Of a stretch of DNA of 64,000 bases, positions 16,963-63,299 are shown piece after piece. The DNA comes from Agarivorans sp. Alg241-V36. GTDB taxonomy: Bacteria; Pseudomonadota; Gammaproteobacteria; Enterobacterales; Celerinatantimonadaceae. Made by a program: the position numbers and the translations under genes. Each line of letters begins with the position of its first letter. Within the stretch, counting starts at the first letter, position 1. The DNA lies in the NCBI RefSeq assembly GCF_900537085.1, contig NZ_UNRE01000007.1, positions 119,653-183,652 on the forward strand, written 5' to 3'. The notes beneath the pieces are model-generated. The model saw nothing but the letters and a program-made list of their open reading frames with translations. It made no database searches and had not been told where the DNA came from.

Positions 16963-16970
16963 CGCCGCCG

Positions 16971-33600: not shown

Positions 33601-34224
33601 TTACAGTGGGTGAGCGCGCCACTCACAAGCGCCAATTTTTAAGTGCTCGAACTGAGCCTTAAACGATGATTGCAAAGGGCTACAGGCATATAAACCTACT
33701 TTGACAGAACAACTTGCGGCAGCAGGAGGATCACTCTGCTCCGCGCCGGTTTCTCCAAGCTGGTGTAAATGGAAAATCCGCATTTGTTGGTAGTTAACCC
33801 CATCTTTCGCGTACTCAATCAAAAAGTCGGGACCACGACGACTTAGCCGATACCAAATATGCTGCGGGGTCGCGATATCGGTAGTTGCCCAATCAGAATA
33901 ACCTAAGTTTGTAACCACCGAACCTAAGCGCGATAGGCTGGGCGTTTCATACTCAATCGATGCTTTAAACCAGTTTTCATCGTTTAGGTAAATAATCACC
34001 CCAGCTTGATCAAACTGAGCTTGATAGTTAAAACTGACCTTGATACTCAAACTAAAGTTATCCGCTCGTTCAATCAGCAGGGCGGGCGCATTGTCATTAC
34101 GAAAACCATAATAAGAGCGCTGCCAAAAATCAGTATTGGGTTCAGTCTCAAGCACTAGCCGGTTTTCATCTAAAACAAATTGCTTAGGTGGATTAAGCCA
34201 TTGTCCTTGTGAAAAATCTTTCAT
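33601..34224 (-). CDS. DUF1349 family protein
   Basis: A 207-residue concanavalin-like beta-sandwich protein of the DUF1349 group. Typical strands are FWQRSYYGFRNDNAPALL, GVIIYLNDENWFKASIEY and FLIEYAKDGVNYQQMRIF. Members are found with sugar-utilisation genes but have no settled activity. No signal peptide, so cytoplasmic. It follows a GNAT gene by 16 bases and is probably co-transcribed. Its end meets the LacI gene end with five bases between. Confidence 0.8.
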   Translation of the reverse strand: MKDFSQGQWLNPPKQFVLDENRLVLETEPNTDFWQRSYYGFRNDNAPALLIERADNFSLSIKVSFNYQAQFDQAGVIIYLNDENWFKASIEYETPSLSRLGSVVTNLGYSDWATTDIATPQHIWYRLSRRGPDFLIEYAKDGVNYQQMRIFHLHQLGETGAEQSDPPAAASCSVKVGLYACSPLQSSFKAQFEHLKIGACEWRAHPL

Positions 34225-35346: not shown

Positions 35347-36177
35347 TTAACCTTTAACAGCACCCGCTGTTAGGCCGTCAATCAACTTACGAGAAGTCAT
35401 CACAAACAAGATCATTAGTGGTACTACCGCAATAGCTGCACCGGCACAAATTGCACCCCATGGTACCTGACCAGTACCTTGTAGAGCACGTAATGCTAGC
35501 GGCACGGTAAACATCTTCATGTCGTTCATTACAACCAATGGGCCCATGAAGTTGTTCCACTGACCAATAAAGGTAATCAGACCAAGCGTACCAAAGGCTG
35601 GTGTAATTAGCGGCACCACTACACGCCAGTAAATAGCAAACTCGTTACAACCATCCATACGCGCTGCTTCGATCAGCTCTTTTGGAATCGCACTTGAGAT
35701 AAACTGACGCATCATAAAGATACCCATTGCACCACAAGCCATTGGAATGTAAAGCGCACGTGGTTGGTTCATCCATTCCAGCTTAGACATAATCAAAGCG
35801 GTTGGAATCATGCCTAAGAACGGTGGTAATAACATAGTGCCCATAATCAAAATGAACATGATGTTACGGCCTCTGAACTCAAACATCGCAAATGCGTAGC
35901 CAGCCAACGAACAGAAGAACAAGTTCAATATCGTAGTAATTAGAGCTACGTAAAAACTTAGACCAATGTTGTGCCAAAAGTACGGTAGTGCGTCTAACAA
36001 AATGCCTACGTTGTTAACGAACTCTCCACCAAACCACACTGGGGGTGGCACCGACAAAATCGACGAGTTGGTATGCGTTGCAAATACAAACATGAAGTAG
36101 AACGGGGCCAACATGATGATTGAGCCCATCCCCACGATGAAATAAGCAATGATATGGCTTTTAGTTAATTTATTCAT
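35347..36177 (-). CDS. carbohydrate ABC transporter permease (MalG type)
   Basis: A 276-residue inner membrane permease with six helices. The EAA loop that contacts the ATPase is LIEAARMDGCNEFAIYWRVVVPLI. It ends in the LTAGAVKG tail usual for MalG/UgpE-like permeases. Last gene of a four-gene importer operon; it starts nine bases after the other permease. With the GH52 beta-xylosidase and XylR-like regulator nearby, the cargo is probably xylo-oligosaccharide. Confidence 0.92.
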   Translation of the reverse strand: MNKLTKSHIIAYFIVGMGSIIMLAPFYFMFVFATHTNSSILSVPPPVWFGGEFVNNVGILLDALPYFWHNIGLSFYVALITTILNLFFCSLAGYAFAMFEFRGRNIMFILIMGTMLLPPFLGMIPTALIMSKLEWMNQPRALYIPMACGAMGIFMMRQFISSAIPKELIEAARMDGCNEFAIYWRVVVPLITPAFGTLGLITFIGQWNNFMGPLVVMNDMKMFTVPLALRALQGTGQVPWGAICAGAAIAVVPLMILFVMTSRKLIDGLTAGAVKG

Positions 36178-36186
36178 AATTCGGTC

Positions 36187-37179
36187 CTACTTCTTCTCAC
36201 CGAGCAATTTGTTGTTACCCCAGGTGAGGAAGGCAATCAAAGCAAACAGAATCCAAGAGACAGCTGATGCAGTACCAAAGTCACCCTCTACGAATGCGGT
36301 AATGTACATGTGCATTGCGGCAGTTTTACCTGCTTGCTCAATACCACCGGTACCACCGGTAATAATGAACGGTTCTTCAAACAACTGCAGGTTACCAATA
36401 ATGGTTAAGGTTACCGCGAAGAACATCATCGGCTTAAGCATAGGCACAGTGATGTACCAGAATTGCTGCCAACGTTTAGCGCCATCTACAGTAGCGGCTT
36501 CGTATAAATCTTTTGGAATGGTTTGCATTGCAGATAAGTACAATACGGTGTTCCACCCCACGTAGCGCCAGAACACGACGAAAGCAATCATGGTTTTAGT
36601 GTATTCAGGACGAGCCCAATCAATATTGGCAGTTGGGAATAACCAAGCCAGGGGTTGAATGTCGCCAACTGTCCAGTTACCCGCCGAGGTGAACAGCATG
36701 TTAATCATGCCGAAGTCACGCGAGAACAAGGTAGTGAATACCAGTGAAATCGCCACCGACGAGGTAATGAAAGGCAAAAAGTACATACCCACTACCGTGT
36801 TACGGCTGCGTTTAAAGCTGGTATGTAAGAAATACGCTAATGGAATAGCCACCACGTGCTGGGGAATACCCGCAGCTAAGGCGATCCAAATAGTGTTGTA
36901 AACAGATGTTTGGAACCAATCATCGGTTAAGGTAAAGGTAAAGTTCTCGATACCTACCCATTCCATGGCGCCTAAACCAGCGGCCGGTTCCCAGTAATGA
37001 AACGATAGAAATAAAGAAAACAGTAGAGGAAATAACCCAAACACAGCAAAAATAACAAAGAATGGACTGACAAATACGTAAGGAGCCCACTTGTAGCCAC
37101 TAGCATTTAGTCGCTGCTTTAGGGTCCGCTTTCTAATTTTAACTACTGGTGGTCTTACGGCAGACTCGACAGAAGACAT
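36187..37179 (-). CDS. carbohydrate ABC transporter permease (MalF type)
   Basis: A 330-residue permease with six main helices after a basic cytoplasmic N-terminus (KIRKRTLKQRL). The EAA loop is LYEAATVDGAKRWQQFWYITVPML. It pairs with the MalG-type permease nine bases downstream. The gene follows the binding-protein gene across 54 bases that contain a strong hairpin. Likely part of a xylo-oligosaccharide importer. Confidence 0.92.
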   Translation of the reverse strand: MSSVESAVRPPVVKIRKRTLKQRLNASGYKWAPYVFVSPFFVIFAVFGLFPLLFSLFLSFHYWEPAAGLGAMEWVGIENFTFTLTDDWFQTSVYNTIWIALAAGIPQHVVAIPLAYFLHTSFKRSRNTVVGMYFLPFITSSVAISLVFTTLFSRDFGMINMLFTSAGNWTVGDIQPLAWLFPTANIDWARPEYTKTMIAFVVFWRYVGWNTVLYLSAMQTIPKDLYEAATVDGAKRWQQFWYITVPMLKPMMFFAVTLTIIGNLQLFEEPFIITGGTGGIEQAGKTAAMHMYITAFVEGDFGTASAVSWILFALIAFLTWGNNKLLGEKK

Positions 37180-37204
37180 CTTTAACTCCCGACAAAAAGA
37201 AAGA

Positions 37205-37223
37205 GAGGGAGGCTAGCTCCCTC
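37205..37223 (-). repeat. intercistronic hairpin in importer operon
   Basis: A stem GAGGGAG/CTCCCTC with a GCTAG loop between the binding-protein gene and the first permease gene. No T tract follows, so it is more likely an mRNA-stabilising or partial-termination hairpin that raises binding-protein yield over permeases. Confidence 0.6.
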
Positions 37224-37233
37224 AGTGTTAATA

Positions 37234-38493
37234 TTAACGTCTAGCGCGACGTTTGATTTGTTTCGCAGCATCCGCTAACACAGTGTCAATGTCAGCATCA
37301 CGCTCTAGTACAGCTTCTAAAGCATCGTTTACGATTTGCTCAGCAACTGGGTCATGCTTGTGTACGTCCATTGCTGGAATACGGTCAGCAGCTTCTTTCC
37401 ACTGAACGCGAGCCACTTGGCCGCCTAAGTACTCAATTGGTTGATTAACGAAATCATCGTTTTGAGCTTCTACAAGAGCAGGGAAAGCGTCTAAATCACG
37501 GAATGCAGCAATTTGCATTTCTTTGTTTAGCGTCATGAACTTAATGAACTCCCAAGCCGCTTCTTTGTTTTTAGCTTTCTTAGGAATACCGTAGAACGAA
37601 CCACCCCAGCTCGCGTATGCGCCAGCAGGTAGGTGAGATGAACGCCATAGACCTTTACTGTCTGGGGCAATCCAACCATTTAAGTGACCGCCTAACCAAG
37701 CACCCATCATTTGTGAAGCGATAGTGCCGCGACGTAGACCTTCAGTCCACTCAGAGCTCCATGCGCCAACTTGAGCATCGATACCCGCTTCACGAACAGC
37801 TTTAGCTAAACGGAAAGCTTCTTTAAAGCGATCTGACTCAACTGTGATGCTGTTATCTGCATCAAAGTAGATACCTTGGCCATCTTTTAAGCCACTGCGA
37901 ATTACAATGTCTTTGATGTCGGTAGCACTTGATACTAGGTAAGAGCCTGTAGCTTCTTTAATTTTCTTACCAGCAGCGATGTAAGAATCCCAGTCTTTAG
38001 TTAGGTCTTCTTTAGTTACGCCCGCTTTTTCTAAAATATCTTCACGGTAAAACAATGCACCCGGGCCAATATCGGCAGGGATAGCAGCCAAAGTACCACT
38101 ACCACCGGTAGCTAGTGGAACAGTGAACTTAGAGAATAGTTTTTCGTATTGCTCTGCGCTGTAAGGAGCGGCACGCAGATCTTCTAAGCCACCAGAAGCA
38201 GCAAAGCGGCCAATGTAGCCATATTCAATACCCATTACGTCAGGCAGGTTACCGCCAGTCGCAAGAGCAGTAGTCATTGCATTGTGGTGGTCACCATATG
38301 CAAGAGAAACCAATTTAATTTCTACTTCTGGGTGAAGCTTCTTGTATAGCGGAATTGCTGAGTTTACCGCTTGGTCAAAGCTTGGGAATGAAGCAACTGT
38401 TAGGGTAGTTTTTGCCCATGCTGACGTTGCGGTTAACGCCAGCGTGGTGCCTAGGGCTAACGCTACTGTTCCAAGTTTCTTTTTATTAAACAT
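37234..38493 (-). CDS. carbohydrate ABC transporter solute-binding protein
   Basis: A 419-residue periplasmic binding protein of the MalE/UgpB type (SBP_bac_1). Signal peptide to SAWA-K. Fold markers are LTVASFPSFDQAVNSAIPLY, EVEIKLVSLAYGDHHNAM, LPDVMGIEYGYIGRFA and NKEAAWEFIKFMTLNKEMQ. It should bind the oligosaccharide and deliver it to the MalFG-like permeases. It is second in the operon, 86 bases after the ATPase gene. Cargo is inferred from the neighbouring GH52 gene. Confidence 0.92.
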   Translation of the reverse strand: MFNKKKLGTVALALGTTLALTATSAWAKTTLTVASFPSFDQAVNSAIPLYKKLHPEVEIKLVSLAYGDHHNAMTTALATGGNLPDVMGIEYGYIGRFAASGGLEDLRAAPYSAEQYEKLFSKFTVPLATGGSGTLAAIPADIGPGALFYREDILEKAGVTKEDLTKDWDSYIAAGKKIKEATGSYLVSSATDIKDIVIRSGLKDGQGIYFDADNSITVESDRFKEAFRLAKAVREAGIDAQVGAWSSEWTEGLRRGTIASQMMGAWLGGHLNGWIAPDSKGLWRSSHLPAGAYASWGGSFYGIPKKAKNKEAAWEFIKFMTLNKEMQIAAFRDLDAFPALVEAQNDDFVNQPIEYLGGQVARVQWKEAADRIPAMDVHKHDPVAEQIVNDALEAVLERDADIDTVLADAAKQIKRRARR

Positions 38494-38579
38494 CCTATTC
38501 TCCTAAGTACATGAACTTTATTATTATTCAATGTCGCAATTGGCTAGTGCGCCTACGCTTTTACAAGCGCTGGGAGTAA

Positions 38580-39683
38580 CTAGTTCATTTTTGGCAAAAT
38601 TGCCTTTCCGGTTTCGTTGTTAAACAAGTGGATCCGCGAGATATCGAAGAACAACTCCACTTTATCTTCCATATCAGCGTTCACGTCGTCAGCTATTGCT
38701 ACTTCTGCAATAAAACGTGCACCATCCAGCTCACACTGCACGTGGTAGGTAGAACCAAGAAGCTCGACGCCGATAACATCAGCTTTTACGCTACCAATGG
38801 TTTCTGATTCAATAGAACGTTGATGTAGATACAGGTCACTTGGACGAATGCCCAAGGTACATACTTGGTTGTCTTCGCTGTACATCGCAGGTAAGTCGAT
38901 GTGTTGGTCGGAGAATACCAAGCTAGAAACTGTGCCAGCTTTCTTAATAGTTGCTGGGATCATATTCATTTCTGGTGCACCAATGAATGAGGCCACAAAC
39001 TTGTTGGCTGGCTCTTCAAAGATTTCTTTTGGTGTACCCACTTGCTCAATGTAACCGTCTTTAAGAATTACGATACGATCCGCCAACGTCATGGCTTCCA
39101 CTTGGTCGTGGGTTACATAGAGAGTAGTAGTGCCTAGTTTGTCGTGCAGAGTTTTAATCTCAGCACGCATAGAGCCACGAAGTTTGGCATCTAGGTTAGA
39201 TAAAGGCTCATCGAACAAGAATACTTCCGGGGTACGTACCATTGCGCGGCCCATTGCCACACGTTGACGTTGACCACCAGATAACTCTTTAGGCTTACGT
39301 TGTAGTAAAGGTGTTAGCTCCAACATGTCTGCCGCGTATTTAACACGCTTGGCAATTTCTTCTTTGGCAACACCGGTCATTTTCAAACCAAAGGCAATGT
39401 TTTGTTCAACGCTCATGTGTGGGTATAGCGCATAGCTTTGGAACACCATGGCGATGTTACGTTCCATTGGGTGTAGGTCGTTAACTAATTCATCGGCGAT
39501 GAAAATTTCACCATCTGAAATATCTTCCAAGCCAGCCAGCATTCTTAGCGTTGTTGATTTACCACAACCAGAAGGGCCAAGCAAAACTACAAACTCGCCA
39601 TCATTAATGTGCAAGTCGAAGCTTTTCACTACTTCCGTTTTACCAAAACGTTTTTTCAAATTATTAAATGTAACTGCTGCCAT
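38580..39683 (-). CDS. carbohydrate ABC transporter ATP-binding protein (MalK/UgpC type)
   Basis: A 367-residue ATPase that powers the importer. Walker [10 protein letters not shown] (residues about 37-45), Q loop in [13 protein letters not shown], signature [14 protein letters not shown], Walker [17 protein letters not shown], switch His in [11 protein letters not shown], then the C-terminal OB-type regulatory domain ([22 protein letters not shown]). First gene of the operon ATPase-binding protein-permease-permease. A promoter region with a LacI-like site and a block shared with GH52 lies upstream. Confidence 0.95.
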
Positions 39684-39759: not shown

Positions 39760-39847
39760 TGTAAGCGCTTTCTTGGAATCAACTTTAGCTAAGGCTGAAA
39801 AGGTCTTCAAACGAATAAAGGTTAAGATTTGAGGCCTGTCATAAAAA
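39760..39847 (-). promoter_or_regulatory. importer promoter with LacI-like site and shared XylR-type block
   Basis: Upstream of the ATPase gene are the near-palindrome TGTAAGCGCTTTCT (39760-39773) and, 64 bases further up, AAGATTTGAGnnCTGTCATAAAAA (39824-39847). TTCAAAcGAATAAA sits between. The same three elements at almost the same spacing precede GH52 at 43431-43517. I read it as activator block, core promoter, and downstream repressor site. Confidence 0.65.
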
Positions 39848-40002: not shown

Positions 40003-41106
40003 TCACGCAAACTTTTGTCTGTATTGGTTGGGTGTCATCTCCATCTCCTGCCGAAACAAATAATATAAATAGTGCTGGTTGGAGAAGCCCGCCGCGTCGG
40101 CGATGGCATCCACTGAAGAAGTGGTTGAAGTCAGCTGCTGCTTAGCAAATTCCATACGTACTTGGTGTAATTGCTGATGTACCGTTTTACCAAGAACCTG
40201 TTTGAATCTTGTTTCAAGGGTTTTGCGAGATACCGCACAATAGTCGACAACTTGCTCCACTTTAATTCGCCTATGAAAGTTACTGTTCAAAAAGAACAGT
40301 GCTTTGGTGATCAAGGGATCAGTTTGAGTAACCTTGTCAGCAGATGCCCCACTCACCAACTCGGTAGCCGGCACCAAAACTTCACGCGCTGGCTTACCAT
40401 CGATTTGTTCTTGTAGCACCGCCAAGGCCTGCTCACCAATTTGCCGGATAGGCAATACAGCAGAGCATAATGAAATGGGTGATAAAGCGCTTTCAGTAGT
40501 GTCTGCATCGATACCAATCAATGAATAGTGCTCGGGTACACTAATGTTTTGATCGTTGCATAGGCTGGCGAACTGTCGAGCCTGAGTATCGGAAGCAGCC
40601 ACCACGCCCACGGTGCTCTCAGGAGTCACCAATTCTGGTACCGTTAGCTCAACATATTCAAGGCGATATTTAAGGGCAATTTTGGCTAGAGCAAATTTCC
40701 GCTCTTTTACCCAAGGTGCTGTAAAAGCAGGCACTCCGCTGAAAAAGCCAACTCGGCGAATGCCTTTGGCTAAGAACGATTGTACGATGAGTTCAACAAT
40801 GGCGAAACTATCGGGGCTCACTCTTGCTAAATGGGCTTGAGAAGGAAGGCTTAAGCGAGAACCAGAAATAGCCACTAAGGGCAATGAAAGTTTTTCACAG
40901 AACGCAGCTACGCCTGGTTTATCAAAATCGGCGATTACGCCACAGAAGCGATCAAGCTTCACTAAGTTAGCTTCTGCAATGGTCATTACTTCTGGCTGCA
41001 TCCAACGAGCCATAGGACTTGGGTTATGCGTAATGCCCTGCAATATCTCTCGGTCATAGGGATGTTTAACATCCAATAATAACAATACAGCGTTATCTTT
41101 ACGCAT
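40003..41106 (-). CDS. XylR-like AraC family regulator
   Basis: A 367-residue regulator. An N-terminal periplasmic-binding-protein-like domain (LLLLDVKHPYDREILQGI, GIRRVGFFSGVPAF, YSLIGIDADT) is followed by a C-terminal AraC helix-turn-helix pair (IKVEQVVDYCAVSRKTLETRF and VDAIADAAGFSNQHYLYYLF). This domain order and the DVxHPYDREI opening match XylR, the D-xylose-responsive activator. It lies between GH52 and the importer on the same strand, 112 bases after GH52. It probably activates both through the shared CTGTCATAAA-type blocks. Confidence 0.88.
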   Translation of the reverse strand: MRKDNAVLLLLDVKHPYDREILQGITHNPSPMARWMQPEVMTIAEANLVKLDRFCGVIADFDKPGVAAFCEKLSLPLVAISGSRLSLPSQAHLARVSPDSFAIVELIVQSFLAKGIRRVGFFSGVPAFTAPWVKERKFALAKIALKYRLEYVELTVPELVTPESTVGVVAASDTQARQFASLCNDQNISVPEHYSLIGIDADTTESALSPISLCSAVLPIRQIGEQALAVLQEQIDGKPAREVLVPATELVSGASADKVTQTDPLITKALFFLNSNFHRRIKVEQVVDYCAVSRKTLETRFKQVLGKTVHQQLHQVRMEFAKQQLTSTTSSVDAIADAAGFSNQHYLYYLFRQEMEMTPNQYRQKFA

Positions 41107-41218: not shown

Positions 41219-43300
41219 TTATTCATTCAACCATAGGATGTTGGTCACACAGCGCGGATAATACAAACTACCAATTGGCTTGCCCGAACTGAATTGATCA
41301 CAACATGCATGTTTGCTTGCTCCAAGCGTTTGCCAGCGTTGGTGGGCTGCATCAGCTTCCACACTATTGGCTAGGTCTATGTTTAATACTTTACGCGCGA
41401 CATATTGGTTTAAATAAATTTTACTTACCCAAGAGTTATCGGCGGTAGATGACAGCTTCCAAGCCCCATCAGGGTACAAGCAATGCTCATCGTTTAATAT
41501 GTATTTTAGGTGAGTTTTGAGTACTTTAATGTATTCAGCATAGGGGCCTTGCTCTGACACCGCTTCTAGTAAGCCCATTTCATAAGGGTAAACTAGGGCT
41601 TCAATGGCCGGAATAATAGCACTGGTAGAATGACCATCAAGCACCGCCGGAATATAACCCAGTTGCGTATCAAAACTGTTGCTTAGCTTATCGGCACAAC
41701 GTTTAGCTGCGGCTAAGGCGATCTCTGCTTGCTCGCTTTCACCAAGATCTCGCAACACTTTAGCAATGGCTAAATACGCCGCCCAACTCTTGCCTGCGAG
41801 GTAAATATTACCGCGCGCTTGGCCTAAACTGTGGTCTAGTGAATCGTAGGTGGTAATCTCGCCGCCTTGCTCGGTGCGAGCGGATTCAAAGCTCATAATG
41901 CCATCACGCAGCTCGGCCTCTGGGTGGTCACGGTTAAGCAAAGACTGTAAACAATCGATCAAAGTACCGCGCTGCTCAGTGGCAAAGTCTTGGTCATTGG
42001 TTTTGCTTATATATACACCGCAGCACAATACCCAGTTGGTTAACTGTTCGTAAGTCATATGACTAAAACACAAACGATCTAAACCCGCTACTTCGTAGGA
42101 GCTATGGCCCTTTGGACTCCAGTTATTCGATACACCCATGTCGTGAGTAAATGAGATACCACCCTTATGGTTTTGCTCAGGCTTAGCCGGATCGAAGATC
42201 TCGTCATAAAAACTATATTGCTTGAGGAACTGCTCTAAAGTGTTTTTCACGGTCCACGGGTTTTGCTGCATCTCAAAAAACAGCATATCAACGGTAAGGT
42301 CGAGGGTATTCATCATCAAATACTCGCCTTCATTAACCACCCAAACTGGCTCGGTGCCATCAAATAACCACTGAGTCGATCCGTAATAACTGCGGGTAGC
42401 ATGGGCTAACAAAAACTGCTGATGGCTATTAAGTTTGCTAGCAGCTAGCTGCTTGTCTGACGCTTCGGCTATGGCCGCATAACTGTCAAAGTGCTCTAAA
42501 CCGTAAGCAAGCACATCAGTTAAGCCAGTAAAATGCTGGGTGTAGTAATATTGCATAGCGCGGTTAAAAGTAACATTTCCGCCTAAGTAAAAGCCTAGCG
42601 CTAAACGTAGCGTTACTGTTTCACCGGCTTTCACGTCAACCATTACACCGGCAGTGGGGCCTAACATAAAGCAATCATTATTGCCGATTTTGCTCAAGGC
42701 GCTTTGCACTGAAAAGTGACTAAAAGCACGTGCGCCAGGGCTTTGTGTGGCTATGCCTACGTTATCACGGCAAGTAACGCCTACCATGCCATTGGCATCG
42801 CCATCTAATAGTTTGTTCCAGCGTAACTCGTCACCTTGCAGGGCAAAAAAGCCAGTCCAGTCTTGCTCAGAAGTATTATTAAAGCTCAGCTCAACGTATA
42901 CCGCCGGACAGCTGGCTTGCTTAAGCTTTTTGTGCTCGGCCAAGCTTGGGTCTGGCACTTCAAAAAATGGGCTCAGCACCTTAAAAGAAATACCCGGTGC
43001 GGCAAAAGTATCACTGGCCCAACGATAATCACGCTGGATATCGTCAAACAAGCGCTCCGTTAGGCTAGAGGTATCATCCTTTTGCACATACCGTTCACTT
43101 TGATCGTTAGCGCCTTTATAAAATGGAAACGCGTTAACTACTCCTTCACCGTCTTGATAACCTACAAATACGTTACCGGCAAAAGGCGCACCTAACTCCA
43201 GCCCCATTCCTCCATGCTCGCCAAACTCCCCTACTGTAAAACTCGCTAACGCGCCCATAGGCGAGTGGTGTGCATGAAAAAACTGCTGATTTTGTTCCAT
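41219..43300 (-). CDS. GH52 beta-xylosidase
   Basis: A 693-residue enzyme matching family GH52, retaining beta-xylosidases best known from Geobacillus. Family blocks run end to end: FFHAHHSPMGALASFTVG, EVPDPSLAEHKKL, VWVVNEGEYLMMNTLDLTVD (Glu324/Glu326 region, family nucleophile), GGISFTHDMGVSN, EITTYDSLDHSLGQ (Asp486 region, family acid/base) and the C-terminal YYPRCVTNILWL. No signal peptide, so it releases xylose from imported xylo-oligosaccharides in the cytoplasm. GGGAG precedes the ATG at 43300. XylR-like and ABC importer genes follow. Confidence 0.93.
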   Translation of the reverse strand: MEQNQQFFHAHHSPMGALASFTVGEFGEHGGMGLELGAPFAGNVFVGYQDGEGVVNAFPFYKGANDQSERYVQKDDTSSLTERLFDDIQRDYRWASDTFAAPGISFKVLSPFFEVPDPSLAEHKKLKQASCPAVYVELSFNNTSEQDWTGFFALQGDELRWNKLLDGDANGMVGVTCRDNVGIATQSPGARAFSHFSVQSALSKIGNNDCFMLGPTAGVMVDVKAGETVTLRLALGFYLGGNVTFNRAMQYYYTQHFTGLTDVLAYGLEHFDSYAAIAEASDKQLAASKLNSHQQFLLAHATRSYYGSTQWLFDGTEPVWVVNEGEYLMMNTLDLTVDMLFFEMQQNPWTVKNTLEQFLKQYSFYDEIFDPAKPEQNHKGGISFTHDMGVSNNWSPKGHSSYEVAGLDRLCFSHMTYEQLTNWVLCCGVYISKTNDQDFATEQRGTLIDCLQSLLNRDHPEAELRDGIMSFESARTEQGGEITTYDSLDHSLGQARGNIYLAGKSWAAYLAIAKVLRDLGESEQAEIALAAAKRCADKLSNSFDTQLGYIPAVLDGHSTSAIIPAIEALVYPYEMGLLEAVSEQGPYAEYIKVLKTHLKYILNDEHCLYPDGAWKLSSTADNSWVSKIYLNQYVARKVLNIDLANSVEADAAHQRWQTLGASKHACCDQFSSGKPIGSLYYPRCVTNILWLNE

Positions 43301-43401: not shown

Positions 43402-43417
43402 CTGTTAGCGCTAACAG
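43402..43417. promoter_or_regulatory. perfect 16-base palindrome, LacI-family-like operator
   Basis: CTGTTAGCGCTAACAG is its own reverse complement, with the central CG typical of LacI/GalR operators. It lies about 100 bases before the GH52 start, and a second, imperfect site follows at 43431-43444. It is the best copy of a motif repeated at five other places in the window. Confidence 0.7.
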
Positions 43418-43430: not shown

Positions 43431-43517
43431 TGTAAGCGCTTTCATGAAGTTAATCTACCCAAGCTAGATAAGTGATTCAAAGAAATAAACAGCAAGATTT
43501 GAGTTCTGTCATAAAAA
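43431..43517 (-). promoter_or_regulatory. GH52 promoter module
   Basis: It holds TGTAAGCGCTTTCA (43431-43444) and, 63 bases further up, AAGATTTGAGnnCTGTCATAAAAA (43494-43517), with TTCAAAgAAATAAA between. The arrangement matches the importer promoter at 39760-39847. It is most likely the XylR-like activator site, core promoter and LacI-type repressor site of GH52. Confidence 0.65.
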
Positions 43518-43765: not shown

Positions 43766-45448
43766 ATGCCCTCAACCTCCCTAATTTTATCGATAAAAAC
43801 TACTGCTAGCCTGGCGGGTATATTAGTACTCACTGCCTGTGGCGGAGGAGGAGGAGGCGAAACTTCGGCCCCAGAGCCAGTGACTCAAGTGCCACTAAAC
43901 ATTATTACCAATGCTTATCTCCTTGATACTAATCCCGATACCAATCTTTTAGCGGGCAACGTTGCCCTCGAACTAGAGCAACAAACTGAAAGCCCTAACG
44001 CAGCTGCAGATTCGGTGTGGGTTTATTGGGCCGATGAACATGGACAAGCCAGTGGCGAAGCATGGTTTAAAAGCAGCGCAAGTGATCCCTATAATATTGC
44101 GCTACCTACACAAAGCAGTATTCCAGAAAATACCCACGCGCTGGTATTGCATCCAGCCAATGCACAAGGCCTTTCAGAGCAAGGCACGCTTGTTCCGTTT
44201 CACGACTTCAAAGGTAATGCGCACTTATCTGGACCAGGGGGGAGTTACCTCAACCCTTGGCAATATGGCGAAGATCGCCCCCACATTGCAGTGCAACGCA
44301 TTGATCATCAAGGTGGAGTATGCATTTTTGATAATGGCTTAGTCAGCGTGATTGATATGCAAAATCAAACCGACCCTCGTGCCCACGATGGCGAGCAAAC
44401 TGCGCTAACAGCCAACGACCAAGCCTACCCGGCCTACGAGTTTTTGTGCAGCGACAAGCCGGTTAATACTCACAAACCTTTGGCCGATGACCAAGGAATA
44501 TGGACCTACTCAGCCATTAATGACGCAATGTACTACGGAACAGTGGTCTATCAAGCCTTCTTAGAACAACTCAAAGAACCACCTTTAGCAGCCAAATTAC
44601 GCATTAGGGTGCATTACGGGAGCCAATCTTCTCAATACATCTTTTGGGATGGAGCTTACGCCAACTTTAGCGATGGGGTACCTCTATTCCTAAATTTGGC
44701 CACTCTCGATCATATCGCCCATGAGGTTGCCCACGGGGTATTAAATAGAATTAGCCCGCTTGATGGATTTGCGCAAAGCATTAGTGTGGACGCGCAAACT
44801 GTTCATGAAGCCTTTGCTGACATATCAGGCGTGATGGTGAAACATGCCTTTAGCGGCAGTGATGATGTATGGCTTCACGGTAAAGAATCAGCTGGTTATA
44901 TCCGCCAGCTAGACCAAATAGAAACCGAAGGCGGTGCTATTGCCAGCTATCTAGATTATGAGGATGCGGGAGACAACTACTACCTGCGTATTGGCATGCT
45001 TAGTTACCCCTTCTACCTTCTGGCAAATAAGTGGGGAATTGCGCCAACTTACCAAATTTATGTGAATGCCGCTAAACATTGCTGGCAACCAAGCTTAAGC
45101 CTTGAAAGCGCCGCCCAATGTATCAAGCAACAAGCACTAGCGGCAGGTTATGCTGCCGATGATGTGAATCAAGCCTTTAAAACAGTGAAGATAAAACTGT
45201 TTGATGAAGGTGTATTAAGCCACTATCGCTATCAAGCAAATGAGGAAGGTATTCAGTTTAGCGACAACAGTCGCAGCACCAGTGAGGTTGTGAGTTGGCA
45301 TTGGGACTTTGGCGATGGCAATACTTCAAGCCTTGTGAATCCTTCGCATAGTTTTACAGAAGGCCGCTACCAAGTCACTTTAACCGTCACGGATCAATCC
45401 AACGACCAAGACAGTTTTACCCGTACCATAGCGGTAAGCTCTAACTAA
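43766..45448 (+). CDS. M4-like metallopeptidase lipoprotein with PKD domain
   Basis: A 560-residue exported lipoprotein. Lipobox LTAC-GG with Cys25, then a Gly run. Zinc site HEVAH (319-323), third ligand in VHEAFADISG (Glu348, Asp352), and SAINDAMYYGTVVYQAF upstream, as in thermolysin-type (M4) peptidases. The motif reads HEVAHG rather than the usual HELTHG. A PKD domain ends the protein (VSWHWDFGDGNTSSLVNPSHSF, about 475-558). It should be a surface or periplasmic endopeptidase. No M4 propeptide is evident, although residues 40-170 form an unassigned domain. Divergent from the GH52 gene across 465 bases. Confidence 0.8.
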   Translation: MPSTSLILSIKTTASLAGILVLTACGGGGGGETSAPEPVTQVPLNIITNAYLLDTNPDTNLLAGNVALELEQQTESPNAAADSVWVYWADEHGQASGEAWFKSSASDPYNIALPTQSSIPENTHALVLHPANAQGLSEQGTLVPFHDFKGNAHLSGPGGSYLNPWQYGEDRPHIAVQRIDHQGGVCIFDNGLVSVIDMQNQTDPRAHDGEQTALTANDQAYPAYEFLCSDKPVNTHKPLADDQGIWTYSAINDAMYYGTVVYQAFLEQLKEPPLAAKLRIRVHYGSQSSQYIFWDGAYANFSDGVPLFLNLATLDHIAHEVAHGVLNRISPLDGFAQSISVDAQTVHEAFADISGVMVKHAFSGSDDVWLHGKESAGYIRQLDQIETEGGAIASYLDYEDAGDNYYLRIGMLSYPFYLLANKWGIAPTYQIYVNAAKHCWQPSLSLESAAQCIKQQALAAGYAADDVNQAFKTVKIKLFDEGVLSHYRYQANEEGIQFSDNSRSTSEVVSWHWDFGDGNTSSLVNPSHSFTEGRYQVTLTVTDQSNDQDSFTRTIAVSSN

Positions 45449-45469
45449 AAATGACCAAACGCTAATAGA

Positions 45470-45499
45470 AAAAACTCCCCGCAGGAAGGAGGCGGGGAG
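45470..45499 (-). terminator. terminator of cassette 2
   Basis: A stem CTCCCCGC/GCGGGGAG (45475-45482/45492-45499) with T tract on the minus strand. It is homologous to the hairpin at 47796-47828 after cassette 1, but with base-pair changes that keep pairing. Confidence 0.75.
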
Positions 45500-45606
45500 G
45501 AAACAAAGTTGTAGGCTGAACCACTTATAGAGTCACACTAACAGCGGTTGTTGTTGTCGGAGTTTGCTATGGGATTATGAGCAAGGCGCCTACAGCTTGT
45601 TCAAAC

Positions 45607-46116
45607 TTAATTCACACTCGTTAAACGAATGTTCTTGAACGTATAACTCACGCCCGGCTCTGCTCCTCCAACAAAAAACGCAAAAGCCGCTTTAGGATCA
45701 GAGTGGTCGGCGGTAAAACTAATATCAATTTTTTTGGGTGTATTATTTACCGCAACATCTTTGGCAAAATATGTTGCGTAATCACCCGAATCTTTTTGCA
45801 ACATAATAGTCAGTGGGCTTTGCTTGCTTGCACTTACTTCAGCCACTATTTGATAAACCTGCCCTTTTGTCAGGTTTACTCTTGGACGCTTTAATTGGAT
45901 CTGCCAAGGGTTACTGGCTTTATCTTCAATGGTAATAATCACGCTATTGCCGCTAAAATTAAAACGGCCAGAGCCATCGCCCCAACCATCAGTTCCGGCA
46001 TTCACTGGCTCCCAACGTTTACCTCCATCTAAAACAATGTCTAGGCTTGCGGCGTAGCCCGATGTGGCCACGGTTACAAAGCCAAACGCCAAAATAAAAG
46101 GCTTTAGAAAATTCAT
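45607..46116 (-). CDS. secreted CBM4/9-like protein C, cassette 2
   Basis: A 169-residue exported protein: signal peptide MNFLKPFILAFGFV...GYA and one beta-sandwich domain. Features are RWEPVNAGTDGWGDGSGRF, NPWQIQLKRP, a YQIVAEVSASK strand and GVSYTFKNIRL at the end. This resembles a single CBM4/9-type carbohydrate-binding module without any enzyme. AAGGAACC sits before the ATG at 46116. It is a close paralogue of the gene at 47939-48448 and more distantly homologous to protein B. Third gene of cassette 2. No ligand is proven; xylan is a guess from context. Confidence 0.75.
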   Translation of the reverse strand: MNFLKPFILAFGFVTVATSGYAASLDIVLDGGKRWEPVNAGTDGWGDGSGRFNFSGNSVIITIEDKASNPWQIQLKRPRVNLTKGQVYQIVAEVSASKQSPLTIMLQKDSGDYATYFAKDVAVNNTPKKIDISFTADHSDPKAAFAFFVGGAEPGVSYTFKNIRLTSVN

Positions 46117-46147
46117 AATTGGTTCCTTTAGTTGGGTGCCCAACGCT

Positions 46148-46687
46148 CTAATAAGTTGAATTAAACTTAACATTGTTAAGGCTATAACTCACACCTGGTC
46201 GCCCTTCACCAAACATAATCGCAAAAGCAGCATGTTTCTCATCGTTAGGCATGGTGAATTCATAGCTATATAGTTTTTTCTCTACACCAACTAATTCAGT
46301 GCGTTGGAAGTAAGTTGTATACTCTCCGCCATCTTGCTGTACCGTAAAACTAAGGTTGCTAGGTTCACTGGCCGAAGCCTCCACAGAGATTTCGTACTTT
46401 GTATCTTCAAACAAATACAAAGGGCGTTTAAGCTGAATATGCCAAAGATTACTGGCTTGTTTCTTTATTCGAACATTGGCCTGTTCATTAGCTAGACTAA
46501 AATCTGCAACACCATCTCCCCAGCCTTCTAGGCCTGCGCTTATTTTCTCCCAGCCTTTGCCATCATTGAGGGTGTAAGTCACCATGATTGACGGAGAAAT
46601 CTGTACCTCTGGCTCTGAGGTGGTACTTGCACAAGCCGCTAAAAATACAGCGCTAACAACAGCAATAAAAACATAAAAACCTTTCAT
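46148..46687 (-). CDS. CBM4/9-like lipoprotein B, cassette 2
   Basis: A 179-residue lipoprotein (LAAC-AS lipobox) with one CBM4/9-like beta-sandwich: GKGWEKISAGLEGWGDGV, LWHIQLKRP, YEISVEASASEPSNL and GVSYSLNNVKF. It shares the GWGDG and W-x-I-Q-L-K-R-P blocks with protein C. The Met at 46687 is spaced better from GAGGA than the Met two codons earlier. Nearly the same as the cassette 1 gene at 48493-49044. Probably an outer-membrane-anchored glycan binder. Confidence 0.72.
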   Translation of the reverse strand: MKGFYVFIAVVSAVFLAACASTTSEPEVQISPSIMVTYTLNDGKGWEKISAGLEGWGDGVADFSLANEQANVRIKKQASNLWHIQLKRPLYLFEDTKYEISVEASASEPSNLSFTVQQDGGEYTTYFQRTELVGVEKKLYSYEFTMPNDEKHAAFAIMFGEGRPGVSYSLNNVKFNSTY

Positions 46688-46750
46688 CTTCATATTCCTC
46701 TTTGTTAAACCACGCTAGCACTTTAGCTCGCGTGGTTAACTAGCAATTAG

Positions 46751-47503
46751 TTACTCACAAGACCACTCAACAGCACCTGCTGGCACTGTTACTGTTTTCT
46801 CAAAAGCCACTTTTCCAATTTCGTAGCTAACGCTCTCGTTACCACGAATATCAAAGCTCATTAAATCGTTCACTTTTGTAATATCAAACGCACCGGTGGC
46901 GTCCTGTATCGAGAAACAGCTCATAGGTACCGCTACAGTTGTCCAACCGTCGGCTTCAAGGTCGGCTAATTGCGCTTGGCTAAAGTAAAAGGCTTGGCGA
47001 TTTTTGTAATCTTCGCCGGCATCAGTATTGGTTTGCATGAAAATCTGGTGAGAAGTTTCGCTAGTGGTGGCTACCAATACCGACAGGTCAATTAACAACA
47101 ATCCATTTTGGTATTCGCTAAGATCTAGCTGGTTCTCTGCGCTACCCACAATAAAGTACACTTCAGCTGGGCCATCTTCGCCAGCCGAGAAGGTATCAAC
47201 TTGCCAAGTTGCAACGCCGCCAGTTTCTTTTGCCGTTACCTGTAATGAATCCGTTTTAGGGTAGCTTTCACCGCGTGCCAATACTTGGCGGTTATAAGAA
47301 TCTGAGTTTGAGCCAACCATAACAGAGAAGTTGGTGGCTGCAGTTCCATCATTAAGAATAACTAAAGCATCACTTACAGGTGGCTCTACCGGCGTCTCAT
47401 CTACTGGTGGCGCTACAGGTGTTTCTTCAATAGCATCCGTGCAACCAGCCAATGCAACAGCACCCGCTAACATAGCTACTTTAAAAACTGTTTTTTTAAT
47501 CAT
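46751..47503 (-). CDS. lipoprotein A, cassette 2 (galactose-binding-like domain)
   Basis: A 250-residue lipoprotein: LAGC-TD lipobox, then a Pro/Val/Glu spacer (about residues 28-45), and a beta-rich domain with LLLIDLSVLVATT, FYFSQAQLADLEADGWTTVAVPMSCF and FDIRGNESVSYEIGKVAFE. This pattern resembles the galactose-binding-like C-terminal domain of ExoP-type GH3 glucanases, here without an enzyme. The Met at 47503 is used because GGGAA almost touches the earlier Met. Paralogue of 49122-49853. Likely a surface glycan-binding protein. Confidence 0.7.
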   Translation of the reverse strand: MIKKTVFKVAMLAGAVALAGCTDAIEETPVAPPVDETPVEPPVSDALVILNDGTAATNFSVMVGSNSDSYNRQVLARGESYPKTDSLQVTAKETGGVATWQVDTFSAGEDGPAEVYFIVGSAENQLDLSEYQNGLLLIDLSVLVATTSETSHQIFMQTNTDAGEDYKNRQAFYFSQAQLADLEADGWTTVAVPMSCFSIQDATGAFDITKVNDLMSFDIRGNESVSYEIGKVAFEKTVTVPAGAVEWSCE

Positions 47504-47600
47504 ATTCATTTCCCTTTGAAATTGTTAAAGGTCAATTAGTGAATTCACCAATTGAGCCAGCGAGAGCCATGTTAACGAGGAAAAAAAAAATAAAAAACAG

Positions 47601-47614
47601 CCTAAGCGCTATAT
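47601..47614. promoter_or_regulatory. degenerate copy of the AGCGCT operator motif
   Basis: CCTAAGCGCTATAT keeps the TAAGCGCTA core of the motif but not its arms. It lies about 98 bases before cassette 2, the same position at which cassette 1 has the good copy. Confidence 0.35.
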
Positions 47615-47795
47615 GAAAAGGGATTCATAAAGAATCATAAAATAATACAAAGCGGGTCAAATAATTCGAAAAAATGTCGAGCAATAAACTCAACAAGTAC
47701 TTATAGAAGTTATGTTAAGGTCACCAATAAACAATAAAATCAGGCTGCAAATAAATCTGTAAGCCTTTGTTATTAGATGACTAAAACTGTTTCAT

Positions 47796-47828
47796 AAAAA
47801 AACTCCTCGCAGGAAGGTGGCGAGGAGT
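47796..47828 (-). terminator. terminator of cassette 1
   Basis: A stem ACTCCTCGC/GCGAGGAGT (47802-47810/47820-47828) followed on the minus strand by six to seven T. It ends the first cassette and implies that cassette 2 has its own promoter. Confidence 0.8.
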
Positions 47829-47938
47829 AAACAAAGTTGCGAGCTAAGTAACAGCATGTAGCTAATCAAGCTGTTACTTAAGTTGTCGGAGTTTGCTTTT
47901 TGGGATTATTAGCAAGGTGCCCGCAGTTTTGTTAAAAG

Positions 47939-48448
47939 CTAATCCGCACTCTTTAGGCGAATGTTTTTAAAGCTGTAAGTCACTCCAGTTTGCGCGCCAC
48001 CAACAAAAAATGCGAAGGCTGCTTTAGAGTCACTCTTCGGAGCTTTAAAAGTTAAATTAAATGTTTGTGCATTTGGACTTACCGATAAGTCTTCAGCATA
48101 GTAAGTCGCATAATCGCCGGAGTCTTTTTGCACAATAATCGTTAAAGGGCTTTTCTGAGTGGCAGTAACTTCAGCAGAAATATTGTAGGTTTGCCCTTTC
48201 TCTAACTTCACTCGGGGGCGCTTTAACTGAATATGCCAAGGGTTACTGGCTTTATCATTAACGGTTACCGTTGCCGTTTCACCATTAAAACTAAAGCTGC
48301 CAGAGCCATCACCCCATCCGTCGTCACCAGCATTAACCTGGTCCCATCGATTCCCACTATCCAAGCTTATATCTAAGCCTGCTGCTGTTACGCCTGTTGC
48401 AACGGTAAATAAGCCGGCGGCTAATGCTAAGGATTTAAGTAATGTCAT
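47939..48448 (-). CDS. secreted CBM4/9-like protein C, cassette 1
   Basis: A 169-residue exported protein, the same length as its cassette 2 copy. Signal peptide MTLLKSLALAAGLFTVATG, then RWDQVNAGDDGWGDGSGSF, NPWHIQLKRPRV, YNISAEVTATQKSPLTI and GVTYSFKNIRL. It should be secreted as a free single carbohydrate-binding module. AGGAATAA precedes ATG. Third gene of cassette 1, 44 bases after B. The shared domain with B points to an older duplication inside the cassette. Confidence 0.75.
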   Translation of the reverse strand: MTLLKSLALAAGLFTVATGVTAAGLDISLDSGNRWDQVNAGDDGWGDGSGSFSFNGETATVTVNDKASNPWHIQLKRPRVKLEKGQTYNISAEVTATQKSPLTIIVQKDSGDYATYYAEDLSVSPNAQTFNLTFKAPKSDSKAAFAFFVGGAQTGVTYSFKNIRLKSAD

Positions 48449-48492
48449 GATTTATTCCTGTACTGTAAAAAGCTGTCTAATAAAAAAAATGA

Positions 48493-49044
48493 CTAGTAAG
48501 TGGAATTCAGTTTGATATTACTTAGGCTGTAGCTCACCCCTGGGTCAGCTTCGCCAAACATAATAGAAAAAGTTCCCTTCCTCTCGTCATTAGGCATGGT
48601 GAATTCGTAGGTATACAGTTTGCTATCGGTGCCAACCAATTCCGTACGATAAAAATAAGTAATGTACTCACCGTAATTTTGTTGAACAGCAATCACCATA
48701 TTGCTTGGCTCACTAGCAGAAGCCTCAACACTTAACTCGTAATTCATATCTTCCAATAAAGCTACGGGACGCTTTATTTGAATATGCCAAGGATTACTCG
48801 CTTTCTTCTTAACCTTAATATTGGCTTGTTCATTCGCTAAGCTGAAATTAGCTACACCATCTCCCCAACCTTGCAAACCGGCACTTACTTTGTCCCAGCC
48901 TTTGCCATTGTTAAGGGTATAGGTGACCATTAATGGAATAACGAACTGGTCATCCTTACCAGCGCTGTCAGAGCTTTCTGTATTGGCACAGGCCACTAAA
49001 AAACAACTCGAGACGGCAGTGAAAAAAACATAAAAACCTTTCAT
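48493..49044 (-). CDS. CBM4/9-like lipoprotein B, cassette 1
   Basis: A 183-residue lipoprotein (LVAC-AN lipobox) with one CBM4/9-like domain: GKGWDKVSAGLQGWGDGV, NPWHIQIKRPVALLED, LSVEASASEPSN and GVSYSLSNIKL. AAGGA is 8 bases before the Met at 49044 and only two before the one at 49050, so the former is used. Paralogue of 46148-46687, with roughly two thirds of residues alike by eye. Anchored by lipid, while C of the same cassette is free. Confidence 0.72.
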   Translation of the reverse strand: MKGFYVFFTAVSSCFLVACANTESSDSAGKDDQFVIPLMVTYTLNNGKGWDKVSAGLQGWGDGVANFSLANEQANIKVKKKASNPWHIQIKRPVALLEDMNYELSVEASASEPSNMVIAVQQNYGEYITYFYRTELVGTDSKLYTYEFTMPNDERKGTFSIMFGEADPGVSYSLSNIKLNSTY

Positions 49045-49121
49045 TTTCATATTCCTTATGAGCCATATATCCATAAAAACGCGCACGGCAATCCTACTGT
49101 GCGCGCTCAATTTAGCTGCGA

Positions 49122-49853
49122 TTAACTACAAGTCCACTCAACAGCTTCAGCCGGAATGCTTGTAGCTTCTTTCTCAATGGCAACTTTACCTATTTCATAG
49201 CTGACACTTTCGTTTCCACGAATATCAAAGCGCATTAGATCGTTAACCTTGGTGATATCAAAGGTAGGATTTTGAGGAGTGAAACAGCTCATCTTTATTG
49301 CTATAGTCGTCCAACCATCAGCTTCTAAATCAGCTAACTGAGTTTGGTTAAAGTAAAAAGCACTGCGGTTTAGATAGTCGTCTGTACCGGTATTTGTTTG
49401 CATAATCAGCTGATGACCAGTTGTAGCGCTATCAGCTGCAACCAATACAGACAGATCGATAAGCATTACACCGTTCTGGTATTCGGTTAGATCCATTTGC
49501 GATGCATCGCTGCCAACAATGAAGTAAACTTCAGCACTACCATCATCACCTGATGAGTACGTGTCAACTTTCCAAGTGTAGCTTCCTGCATTGTCACTTG
49601 GGCTCACTTCAAGAGCGCTTGTTTTAGCATAGCTCTCACCTTTCGCTAGACCCTGACGGTTGTAGCTGTCTGAATTTGACCCCACAATTATGCCGAAGTT
49701 AGTTGCAGGAATACCGTCATCAATAATAACAAGCGCATCCCCCACTGGCGGCTCTACTGGTGGATCAACTGGCTCTTCAATAGACTCGGTACAACCGGCT
49801 AGTGCAACTGCGCCAGCTAACATAGTGATTTTAAATATTGCGTTTTTACTCAT
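49122..49853 (-). CDS. lipoprotein A, cassette 1 (galactose-binding-like domain)
   Basis: A 243-residue lipoprotein: LAGC-TE lipobox, a Pro/Val/Glu spacer, then the same beta-rich domain as 46751-47503 (VMLIDLSVLVAAD, FYFNQTQLADLEADGWTTIAI and FDIRGNESVSYEIGKVAIE). GGGAG abuts the ATG at 49859, so translation should start at the Met at 49853. First gene of cassette 1. A near-perfect AGCGCT-type palindrome lies 108 bases upstream. Suggested role: glycan-binding surface lipoprotein. Confidence 0.7.
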   Translation of the reverse strand: MSKNAIFKITMLAGAVALAGCTESIEEPVDPPVEPPVGDALVIIDDGIPATNFGIIVGSNSDSYNRQGLAKGESYAKTSALEVSPSDNAGSYTWKVDTYSSGDDGSAEVYFIVGSDASQMDLTEYQNGVMLIDLSVLVAADSATTGHQLIMQTNTGTDDYLNRSAFYFNQTQLADLEADGWTTIAIKMSCFTPQNPTFDITKVNDLMRFDIRGNESVSYEIGKVAIEKEATSIPAEAVEWTCS

Positions 49854-49960
49854 GCTCATCTCCCTGTGAAATTGGTAAGGCAGGCAGGTACTTATTTCCT
49901 TGTGCCCATGGAATTTATCCTAGGGTTGGCCAGCAGCCAAAAAAACGATAATGATCACAA

Positions 49961-49974
49961 TGTAAGCGCTAACA
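49961..49974. promoter_or_regulatory. LacI-family-like operator before cassette 1
   Basis: TGTAAGCGCTAACA is a near-perfect palindrome (one mismatched pair in the arms) and the same motif as at 43402. It lies in the promoter region of the A-B-C cassette. Confidence 0.6.
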
Positions 49975-50315: not shown

Positions 50316-50570
50316 TTAGTCTTTTGCGTTCAGTTTTTCTTCTAATTCCGCGACTTTTTGCTCTAAGGTACTTAGCTTTTCACGGGTACGTAACAATACT
50401 TGAGTTTGTACATCGAAGTCTTCGCGATTAACCACATCAAGTTGACTCAATTTAGCTTGAATCACCTGCTTCACCTTACGTTCAAACTCATCGCCCGCAT
50501 TTTTCAATCCAGGCGGCACCATATCGCTAACTTGTTTAGCAATCTCTTCTATCTTGGCTGGGTTAATCAT
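50316..50570 (-). CDS. ubiK: ubiquinone biosynthesis accessory factor UbiK
   Basis: An 84-residue protein matching UbiK (YqiC), a coiled-coil factor that assists the Ubi complex under air. The signature REDFDVQTQVLLRTREKL is followed by a heptad-type end (LEQKVAELEEKLN), and it opens INPAKIEEIAKQV as in E. coli. Slightly shorter at the C-terminus than the E. coli protein. Single gene with its own terminator. Confidence 0.92.
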   Translation of the reverse strand: MINPAKIEEIAKQVSDMVPPGLKNAGDEFERKVKQVIQAKLSQLDVVNREDFDVQTQVLLRTREKLSTLEQKVAELEEKLNAKD

Positions 50571-61351: not shown

Positions 61352-61557
61352 GAAGCGTTATCTTACTAAAGCTGTATTAATCAACATACTGGCTTAAGCA
61401 CCAGCAACTTCATTTTGACGTTCTCGCACCAGAGTGCGATAACAATCATCACTTATTGATGATTTAACCAGCAAGTCAGTTTCACGTTGCTATATTCAAC
61501 TTGCTCGTAGCGGTAAGTAAAGCGAGTTCATCTCAAAAACAATCCAAGGAAGGCAAC

Positions 61558-62668: not shown

Positions 62669-63136
62669 CTATTTTAGGTTTAGCTCAAACCAGTTAATGT
62701 TAAATAAATAACCAGACGAACCTTTAAAATTAAAGCGCAGCGTTTGCTCGCCGGCTTCGAGGCTCAAGCTGTTTTCAAGGCTTACCCAGTTTTGCCAACC
62801 ACCGGTGCCTTTTACCTTAACCGTGGCTTTTTCGGCATCATTGGCTAGCACCGCAATGCGTCCACCGTTGGTATCACTGGCTACTCGCACGGTAAATGTG
62901 TATTCGCCCGCCGCTGGAACGTTAATGGTATATTCCACCCAATCGCCATTTTCAATATAACCAACATTGTTGCCGCCATCAGCGTCGGCTGTAGGCTCGG
63001 TTTGCACCCCATTTTGCTGGCTATAGTTTTCTGCCTTTACTTTTATCGCTGCATTTGCAGCCGTGCTTAAGCCAGCCATAGCCACCAAGGCGCTTGTTAG
63101 CATTAGGTTTTTAATTTGCTTAGGTAAAATGCTCAT
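62669..63136 (-). CDS. secreted CBM6 carbohydrate-binding protein
   Basis: A 155-residue exported protein: a signal peptide (LMLTSALVAMAGLSTAANA), then a single CBM6 module with the typical opening IKVKAENYSQQNGV, NNVGYIENGDWVEYTINVP, and the end LRFNFKGSSGYLFNINWFEL, which carries the conserved aromatic and Asn ligands. CBM6 modules bind xylan, agarose or beta-glucans. This one stands alone without an enzyme. GAGGGAG precedes ATG. An AGCGCT-type operator lies about 150 bases upstream, linking it to the GH52 region. Confidence 0.88.
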   Translation of the reverse strand: MSILPKQIKNLMLTSALVAMAGLSTAANAAIKVKAENYSQQNGVQTEPTADADGGNNVGYIENGDWVEYTINVPAAGEYTFTVRVASDTNGGRIAVLANDAEKATVKVKGTGGWQNWVSLENSLSLEAGEQTLRFNFKGSSGYLFNINWFELNLK

Positions 63137-63285: not shown

Positions 63286-63299
63286 TGTTAGCGCTCACA
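63286..63299. promoter_or_regulatory. LacI-family-like operator before the CBM6 gene
   Basis: TGTTAGCGCTCACA matches the palindrome at 43402-43417 except for one arm base. It lies upstream of the CBM6 gene and far from the other copies. Confidence 0.55.

Follow-up and report, generated by a model that had tools for sequence, protein, structure and literature searches.

A 64,000-nucleotide stretch of the Agarivorans sp. Alg241-V36 genome (contig NZ_UNRE01000007.1; hereafter the window) carries two tandem copies of a three-gene cassette, A-B-C, coding for non-catalytic proteins with carbohydrate-binding-like domains. These are predicted surface proteins which probably bind xylan, and the second copy is probably co-induced with a dispersed set of xylan-degrading genes. 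The domain kinds are known; what is new is a duplicated, operator-controlled set that consists only of stand-alone binding domains, is confined to one genus, likely belongs to a xylan regulon and includes one protein with a mosaic head.

The duplicated cassette

The two copies consist of six consecutive minus-strand open reading frames (ORFs), read from the ORF list with an inner ATG taken as the start of C1 and B2. CBM denotes a carbohydrate-binding module.

49122-49859, minus strand: A2, predicted lipoprotein with an Exop_C-like domain, mosaic between strains (ORF, Pfam, strain comparison)
48493-49050, minus strand: B2, predicted lipoprotein with a single CBM4/9 domain (ORF, Pfam)
47939-48448, minus strand: C2, secreted protein with a single CBM4/9 domain (ORF, Pfam, structure model)
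46751-47509, minus strand: A1, predicted lipoprotein with an Exop_C-like domain (ORF, Pfam, structure model)
46148-46693, minus strand: B1, predicted lipoprotein with a single CBM4/9 domain (ORF, Pfam)
45607-46116, minus strand: C1, secreted protein with a single CBM4/9 domain (ORF, Pfam)

An earlier note on this stretch had read the six genes as two copies of A-B-C. The ORFs bear this out, as do DNA repeats spaced approximately 2.33-2.37 kb from copy to copy and protein identities between copies of 70% for A, 69% for B and 62% for C. Both copies are present in three of the seven Agarivorans genomes compared (G000, which contains the window, G002 and G005), and the duplication is evidently old, because synonymous sites between the copies are saturated or nearly so in all three.

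The domain assignments of the note hold with one reservation. A lipobox cysteine is present in A and B, and C has an ordinary signal peptide, matching predicted lipoproteins and a free secreted protein, respectively. B and C exceed the curated cut-off of CBM_4_9 (PF02018) in 4/4 proteins (37.1-45.3 bits against 25.9), with one such domain each, and the domain is common to both, C2 sharing 38% identity with B2 and 37% with B1. No catalytic family passes its Pfam cut-off on any of the six proteins. The structure model of C2 (predicted local distance difference test, pLDDT, 88.1) is a CBM4 beta-sandwich, and all best matches listed are CBM4. Residues W71 and Y113, invariant in eight sequences, align with two Trp of the CBM4 module 1gui, whose counterparts we take to be an aromatic platform in the cleft that stacks against the ligand. 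Carbohydrate binding by B and C is predicted from fold and profile. The reservation concerns A: the model of A1 has the galactose-binding-like fold of the ExoP tail, as the note supposed, while only A1 passes the Exop_C (PF18559) cut-off of 26.1 bits (26.6), A2 scoring just under it (25.6). Sequence searches of solved structures with A1 and with a profile of A gave no match.

Operator sites and a putative xylan regulon

The link to xylan comes from a short LacI-type palindrome, which is found upstream of copy 2 and at xylanase-family genes. The sites and genes of the window concerned are:

49961-49974, unstranded: LacI-type operator TGTAAGCGCTAACA, 101 bp before A2 (motif scan)
43403-43416, unstranded: operator TGTTAGCGCTAACA before GH52 (motif scan)
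43431-43444, unstranded: second operator TGTAAGCGCTTTCA before GH52, present in 7/7 Agarivorans genomes
39760-39773, unstranded: TGTAAGCGCTTTCT, a weaker site with two mismatches ahead of the ABC importer genes, present in 7/7 Agarivorans genomes
63286-63299, unstranded: TGTTAGCGCTCACA, an operator 149 bp upstream of the lone CBM6 gene; G001 and G004 have it too
62669-63136, minus strand: lone CBM6 protein, secreted, which likely belongs to the same regulon
41219-43297, minus strand: GH52 family gene (beta-xylosidase family; Pfam)
40003-41106, minus strand: XylR-type AraC regulator gene (PF22177 PBP1_XylR, HTH_18)
35347-39683, minus strand: ATP-binding cassette (ABC) sugar importer, with two permeases, binding protein and ATPase

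The cassette operator is kept in 6/7 genomes, exactly in G000, G001, G002 and G004 and with one base changed in G005 and G006. A genome-wide scan of G000 with the pattern TGTnAGCGCTnACA finds seven exact sites. Four of these are the perfect palindrome TGTTAGCGCTAACA, one each at GH8, GH10, GH11 and GH52, with a LamB porin gene divergent from GH10. Of the other three, one precedes the cassette, one precedes the lone CBM6 gene, and one separates a chemoreceptor gene from a LysR gene. All seven except the GH11 site are non-coding and 17-149 bp from a start; the GH11 site falls within the first codons of the ORF. Across the genus the perfect palindrome occurs at 15 sites in 6/7 genomes, and it is absent from five genomes of other genera. 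GH10, GH11, GH8 or GH52 genes account for 14 of the 15, four being the intragenic GH11 sites (G000, G001, G002, G004), and the remaining site is inside a chemoreceptor ORF. The unrelated GH11 gene of G005 has the palindrome upstream of its ORF. With the looser pattern the genus yields 31 sites against one for a reversed control: 15 at GH10/11/8/52, four at the cassette, three at CBM6, six at chemoreceptor/LysR and three inside other ORFs. G003 has no exact site genome-wide and no close GH10 (best match 45%). The perfect site is one base away from TGGTAGCGCTAACA, the form of the Xanthomonas xyl-box given in PMC10380989 and PMC7748154. The neighbours of the sites, their conservation and the near-xyl-box palindrome together make a xylan regulon the likely home of copy 2.

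Two further sets of sites accompany this picture. The chemoreceptor and LysR genes (L035:7512-9530 and 9848-10744; G000 contig C9) share TGTAAGCGCTTACA in 6/7 Agarivorans genomes, and the chemoreceptor possibly belongs to the same regulon. One-mismatch operator-like sites also occur in LamB genes at L033:9957 and L037:10087, the former in the first codons, so that sites of this sort may simply be signal-peptide codons.

From the observed gene order, domains, operator sites with their neighbours, conservation, lack of a SusD match and mosaic A2 domain we infer a scheme of binding, ligand, repressor identity, cell location, regulation and order of events. When xylan products are absent, a LacI-type repressor on the TGTnAGCGCTnACA operators would keep copy 2 off, and would also silence GH10, GH11, GH8, GH52 and the lone CBM6, with the ABC importer reached through its weaker site. 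On release of the repressor, xylan chains would be kept close to the cell by the lipoproteins A and B, anchored in the outer membrane, and by the free protein C, so that the secreted GH10, GH11 and GH8 enzymes could cut them locally. Oligomers would then pass the porin, whose LamB gene lies beside GH10, and the ABC importer, to be cut by GH52. Copy 2 would help to catch xylan because its control site, which is likely xylan-responsive, is common to xylanase-family genes; copy 1 would form a further set that this operator does not govern. The glycan-capture system proposed in the earlier note is partly supported. Its statement that the group lacks SusCD holds for the SusD half: the PF07980 model finds SusD in 0/7 Agarivorans genomes, with a positive Bacteroides ihuae control, and SusC-type transporters were not searched. 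Because of this SusD result, surface capture would be by a SusCD-free route.

Control of copy 1 appears to be different. The note had given each copy its own terminator and an operator-like site about 100 bases upstream. A hairpin and T-run indeed follow each copy:

47797-47821, minus strand: hairpin and T-run after copy 2 (repeat comparison, stem kept across genomes)
45469-45495, minus strand: hairpin and T-run after copy 1 (pattern scan, repeat comparison)

The two hairpins are 91% alike, and the one between copy 2 and copy 1 keeps its stem in the three genomes that have it. The terminator pattern scan recovers the copy-1 hairpin only, and its five terminator-like hits are no excess over the shuffle mean of 4.5. 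The operator is found 101 bp before A2, as claimed, but none precedes copy 1 in G000, G002 or G005. An AGCGCT core near 47606 was considered and rejected, as it is not flanked by the operator bases and neither G002 nor G005 has it. Directly before A1 stands a near-perfect palindrome, TCAATTAGTGAATTCACCAATTGA (47532-47555), kept in G002 and changed in G005. Since copy 1 has no operator and a hairpin separates the copies, the two are likely under different control. The history of copy 1 may differ too. Between G000 and G002 its genes have a synonymous divergence (dS) of 0.12-0.13, below that of the 11 other genes compared (0.18 for ilvC to 1.02, with GH52 at 0.52 and the A2 leader at 0.43), a sign that strains may have exchanged copy 1. 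A1 is 94-98% identical among the three genomes that carry copy 1.

The variable domain of A2

The mature domain of A2 differs between strains far more than the sequence around it. Between G000 and its closest relative G001, the A2 leader is 82-93% identical in DNA, whereas the A2 domain shows 48% protein identity; B2 stands at 92%. Measured along the DNA in 60-base steps, identity to G001 falls from 98% at the operator to 80% ahead of the start, is 93 and then 82% within the leader, drops to 43-67% across the domain, and recovers to 79% at the stop and 93% immediately beyond. For the same pair dS is 0.08 in the importer ATPase, 0.21 in GH52, 0.32 in B2, 0.41 in C2 and 0.36 in the A2 leader; in the A2 domain synonymous sites are saturated (proportion of differing synonymous sites 0.75), with 0.44 nonsynonymous changes per site. 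Domain identity does not track relatedness in these comparisons: it is 48% for G000-G001, where GH52 is 98% identical, and 81% for G001-G005, where GH52 is 86% identical (rank correlation with GH52 -0.29 over 15 pairs from six genomes). A tree of the domain (16 rows, support 94/96, unstarred, long branches flagged) places the A2 of G000 with the A1 proteins, G003 and G004, apart from the type of G001, G002, G005 and G006.

Replacement of the A2 domain by recombination behind a constant leader looks like the simplest reading. Fast point mutation is disfavoured because synonymous sites of the domain are at or near saturation while those of the leader, B2 and C2 stay low (dS 0.29-0.64 in G001, G002 and G004, except 1.22 for G004 B2). 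The mosaic picture is not clean: other genes of the region vary too, as shown by a nearby LysR gene with a dS of 0.78-0.89 in G001, G002 and G004 (0.78 for G000-G001) and a nonsynonymous divergence (dN) below 0.01, so the whole stretch evidently recombines.

GH10 (L033:8215-9339; L130-L134) likewise comes in two types: G000 has 73-78% identity to five other genomes, and within these five a group of four shares 92-99%. Four genomes had suggested that GH10 type covaries with A2 type (identity 96-99% among G001, G002 and G005, and 75-77% between these and G000). The covariation fails with six genomes (rho 0.28, Mantel p 0.21; G003, without a close GH10, left out), and G004 combines the common GH10 type with its own A2 type.

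Tentatively, and with more doubt than conviction, we suggest that A2 is a lipoprotein with an exchangeable head, in which operator, signal, anchor and linker are constant and the glycan-binding domain is swapped between strains, each version having its own xylan preference or a phage-resistant face. The A2 heads form a natural variant series with which to ask if surface diversity is driven by binding specificity or by escape. If true, the exchangeable head would mean that a nutrient-capture protein undergoes allelic domain swapping, inside a stand-alone-domain system free of SusCD.

Ligand, function and cause of variation

Several observations weigh against xylan capture by the cassette. By sequence and fold, the laminarinase module 1gui is the closest CBM4 match of C2 among the best matches listed; a GH9 is the genome's nearest CBM4/9 enzyme, and the model of A1 has modest confidence (pLDDT 66.7). 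Copy 1 lacks the operator, and C is missing from G003, where A and B are flanked by transposase genes. The pattern TGTnAGCGCTnACA resembles operators of many LacI-family repressors, and none of the 13 LacI genes of G000 is linked to it by the recognition helices compared (3 and 7 of the 13). Being inside the first codons, the GH11 sites of four genomes could be signal-peptide codons; the second LamB site, with one mismatch, is also coding, and 3/31 sites lie inside unrelated ORFs (nucleotidyltransferase/CBS, GH9-CBM3, chemoreceptor). Nor is GH8 always a xylanase. A beta-glucan ligand (laminarin, mixed-linkage glucan or cellulose) would suit the 1gui match, the origin of Exop_C in a beta-1,3/1,4-glucanase, the GH9 as nearest CBM4/9 enzyme and the exact G005 site in the GH9-CBM3 ORF, the operator then being common only as LacI palindromes are alike. 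We nevertheless hold it unlikely: fold similarity does not set the ligand, 14/15 perfect sites are at GH10, GH11, GH8 or GH52, and GH52 and the XylR-type regulator are neighbours in 7/7 genomes. Within xylans, beta-1,3-xylan was set aside as the target on the weak argument that GH26 occurs in only 2/7 genomes against seven for A; the GH26 family includes other activities.

That the proteins are adhesins fixing the cell to algal or plant surfaces, with feeding not their main task, seems to us less probable still. A lone CBM can be used for attachment no less than for capture, and the proteins have no catalytic domain, with C free and unanchored, yet the operator is common to degradative enzymes and an importer belongs to the conserved neighbourhood. 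Xylan capture is preferred. The variation of A2 poses a separate question, whether phages or predators using A2 as a receptor drive it rather than substrate choice. This would agree with an exposed domain losing similarity while the leader and B2/C2 are kept, and with an A2 type that does not track GH10 type. It is an improbable cause given that A1, B1 and B2, which would be equally exposed, are far better conserved between strains; A1 also has no match in 50,697 phage records, which tests phage carriage only.

Neighbourhood, distribution and known systems

The cassette is flanked by the GH52 gene and an M4-like peptidase gene on one side and a small conserved gene (50316-50570) on the other. 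In 7/7 Agarivorans genomes A-B lies between the GH52/AraC/ABC block and ilvC, matching the note's placement beside GH52 and the importer; G001, G004 and G006 have one copy. In the family, A is found in 9/12 genomes, the seven Agarivorans and two of another genus. In both of the latter, two A domains are fused in one lipoprotein directly after a same-strand GH8 gene, which has a similar operator and is only 24% identical to the Agarivorans GH8 (identified by Pfam in L099 and by 95% identity to it in L100). Protein searches with A return six hits each among 5.8 billion proteins. Two of the hits are, exactly or nearly, proteins of the window itself, and all those that come with an organism name belong to Agarivorans; A is rare by this measure, though the searches need shared short words and the second scored the best 7995 candidates, so that distant relatives may be missed. 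The listings of literature searches, including those on Agarivorans with xylan or GH52, contain no account of the cassette.

Other genes of the window and genomes are recorded here. The M4-type (thermolysin-like) peptidase with a PKD domain (43766-45448, plus strand) is divergent from GH52 across the two operators. It is 87-88% identical in G001 and G002, where its neighbours reach 97-100%, and is absent from the ORF lists at this place in G003, G004 and G006, with a transposase ORF there in G003. A DUF1349 protein (33601-34224, minus strand) also matches the GH43 beta-xylosidase C-terminal domain and adjoins the LacI gene of the window (32537-33595), which is of lac-repressor type. A secreted protein with a CBM21-like domain (61501-62592, plus strand; also in G001 and G002) faces the lone CBM6 gene, beside which an integrase-like transposase, recognized from its translation, lies at the window edge (63376-63999, minus strand). 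A distant A paralogue of 276 aa (L104:9571-10401 in G005, and P0012) adjoins an isocitrate lyase-family gene, with no xylan genes near within the stretch covered. Further Exop_C-like domains occur on G000 contig C4, in a 761-aa WxL-matching protein (L036:2813-5098) and a GH16 protein (16728-18320), with a GH17-like gene and a LacI gene alongside; this may be a beta-glucan locus.

Surface capture of polysaccharides is known mainly from studies of Bacteroidota that use SusCD. Agarivorans, a marine gammaproteobacterium, appears to manage it with small stand-alone binders, a porin and an ABC importer under xyl-box-like control, and the ligand question is directly testable with six small proteins and one substrate class. 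Compared with surface glycan-binding proteins of Bacteroidota polysaccharide utilization loci such as BtSGBP-B (7kwb/7kwc), the Agarivorans proteins are single small domains, accompanied by LamB porin and ABC importer genes in a dispersed regulon, with no SusD match. B and C have the fold and aligned aromatic positions of 1gui and of CBM4-2 from Rhodothermus xylanase 10A, but those modules are parts of enzymes, while B and C stand alone. Similarly, A resembles the Exop_C tail of ExoP from Pseudoalteromonas sp. BB1 (3f95, 3ut0; 17% identity) as a stand-alone lipoprotein without the GH3 enzyme.

We know of no A-B-C cassette in the Xanthomonas xylan regulon. The likeness to that XylR/xyl-box system is an operator one base apart with xylan genes under it (PMC10380989, PMC7748154); in Xanthomonas uptake goes through TonB-dependent transporters (PMC12125979). 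Another related system is the beta-1,3-xylan locus xul of Vibrio sp. EA2, also from a marine gammaproteobacterium with an ABC importer and a XylR-type activator, described with GH26, GH3 and GH43 enzymes and AT-rich direct-repeat sites (PMC12125979). The main text of that paper does not use the term CBM, and GH26 is scarce in Agarivorans (2/7 genomes). A lone secreted CBM20, Cgt of Actinoplanes, is likewise a small one-CBM protein, differing in CBM family and in its Gram-positive host (PMC7275007).

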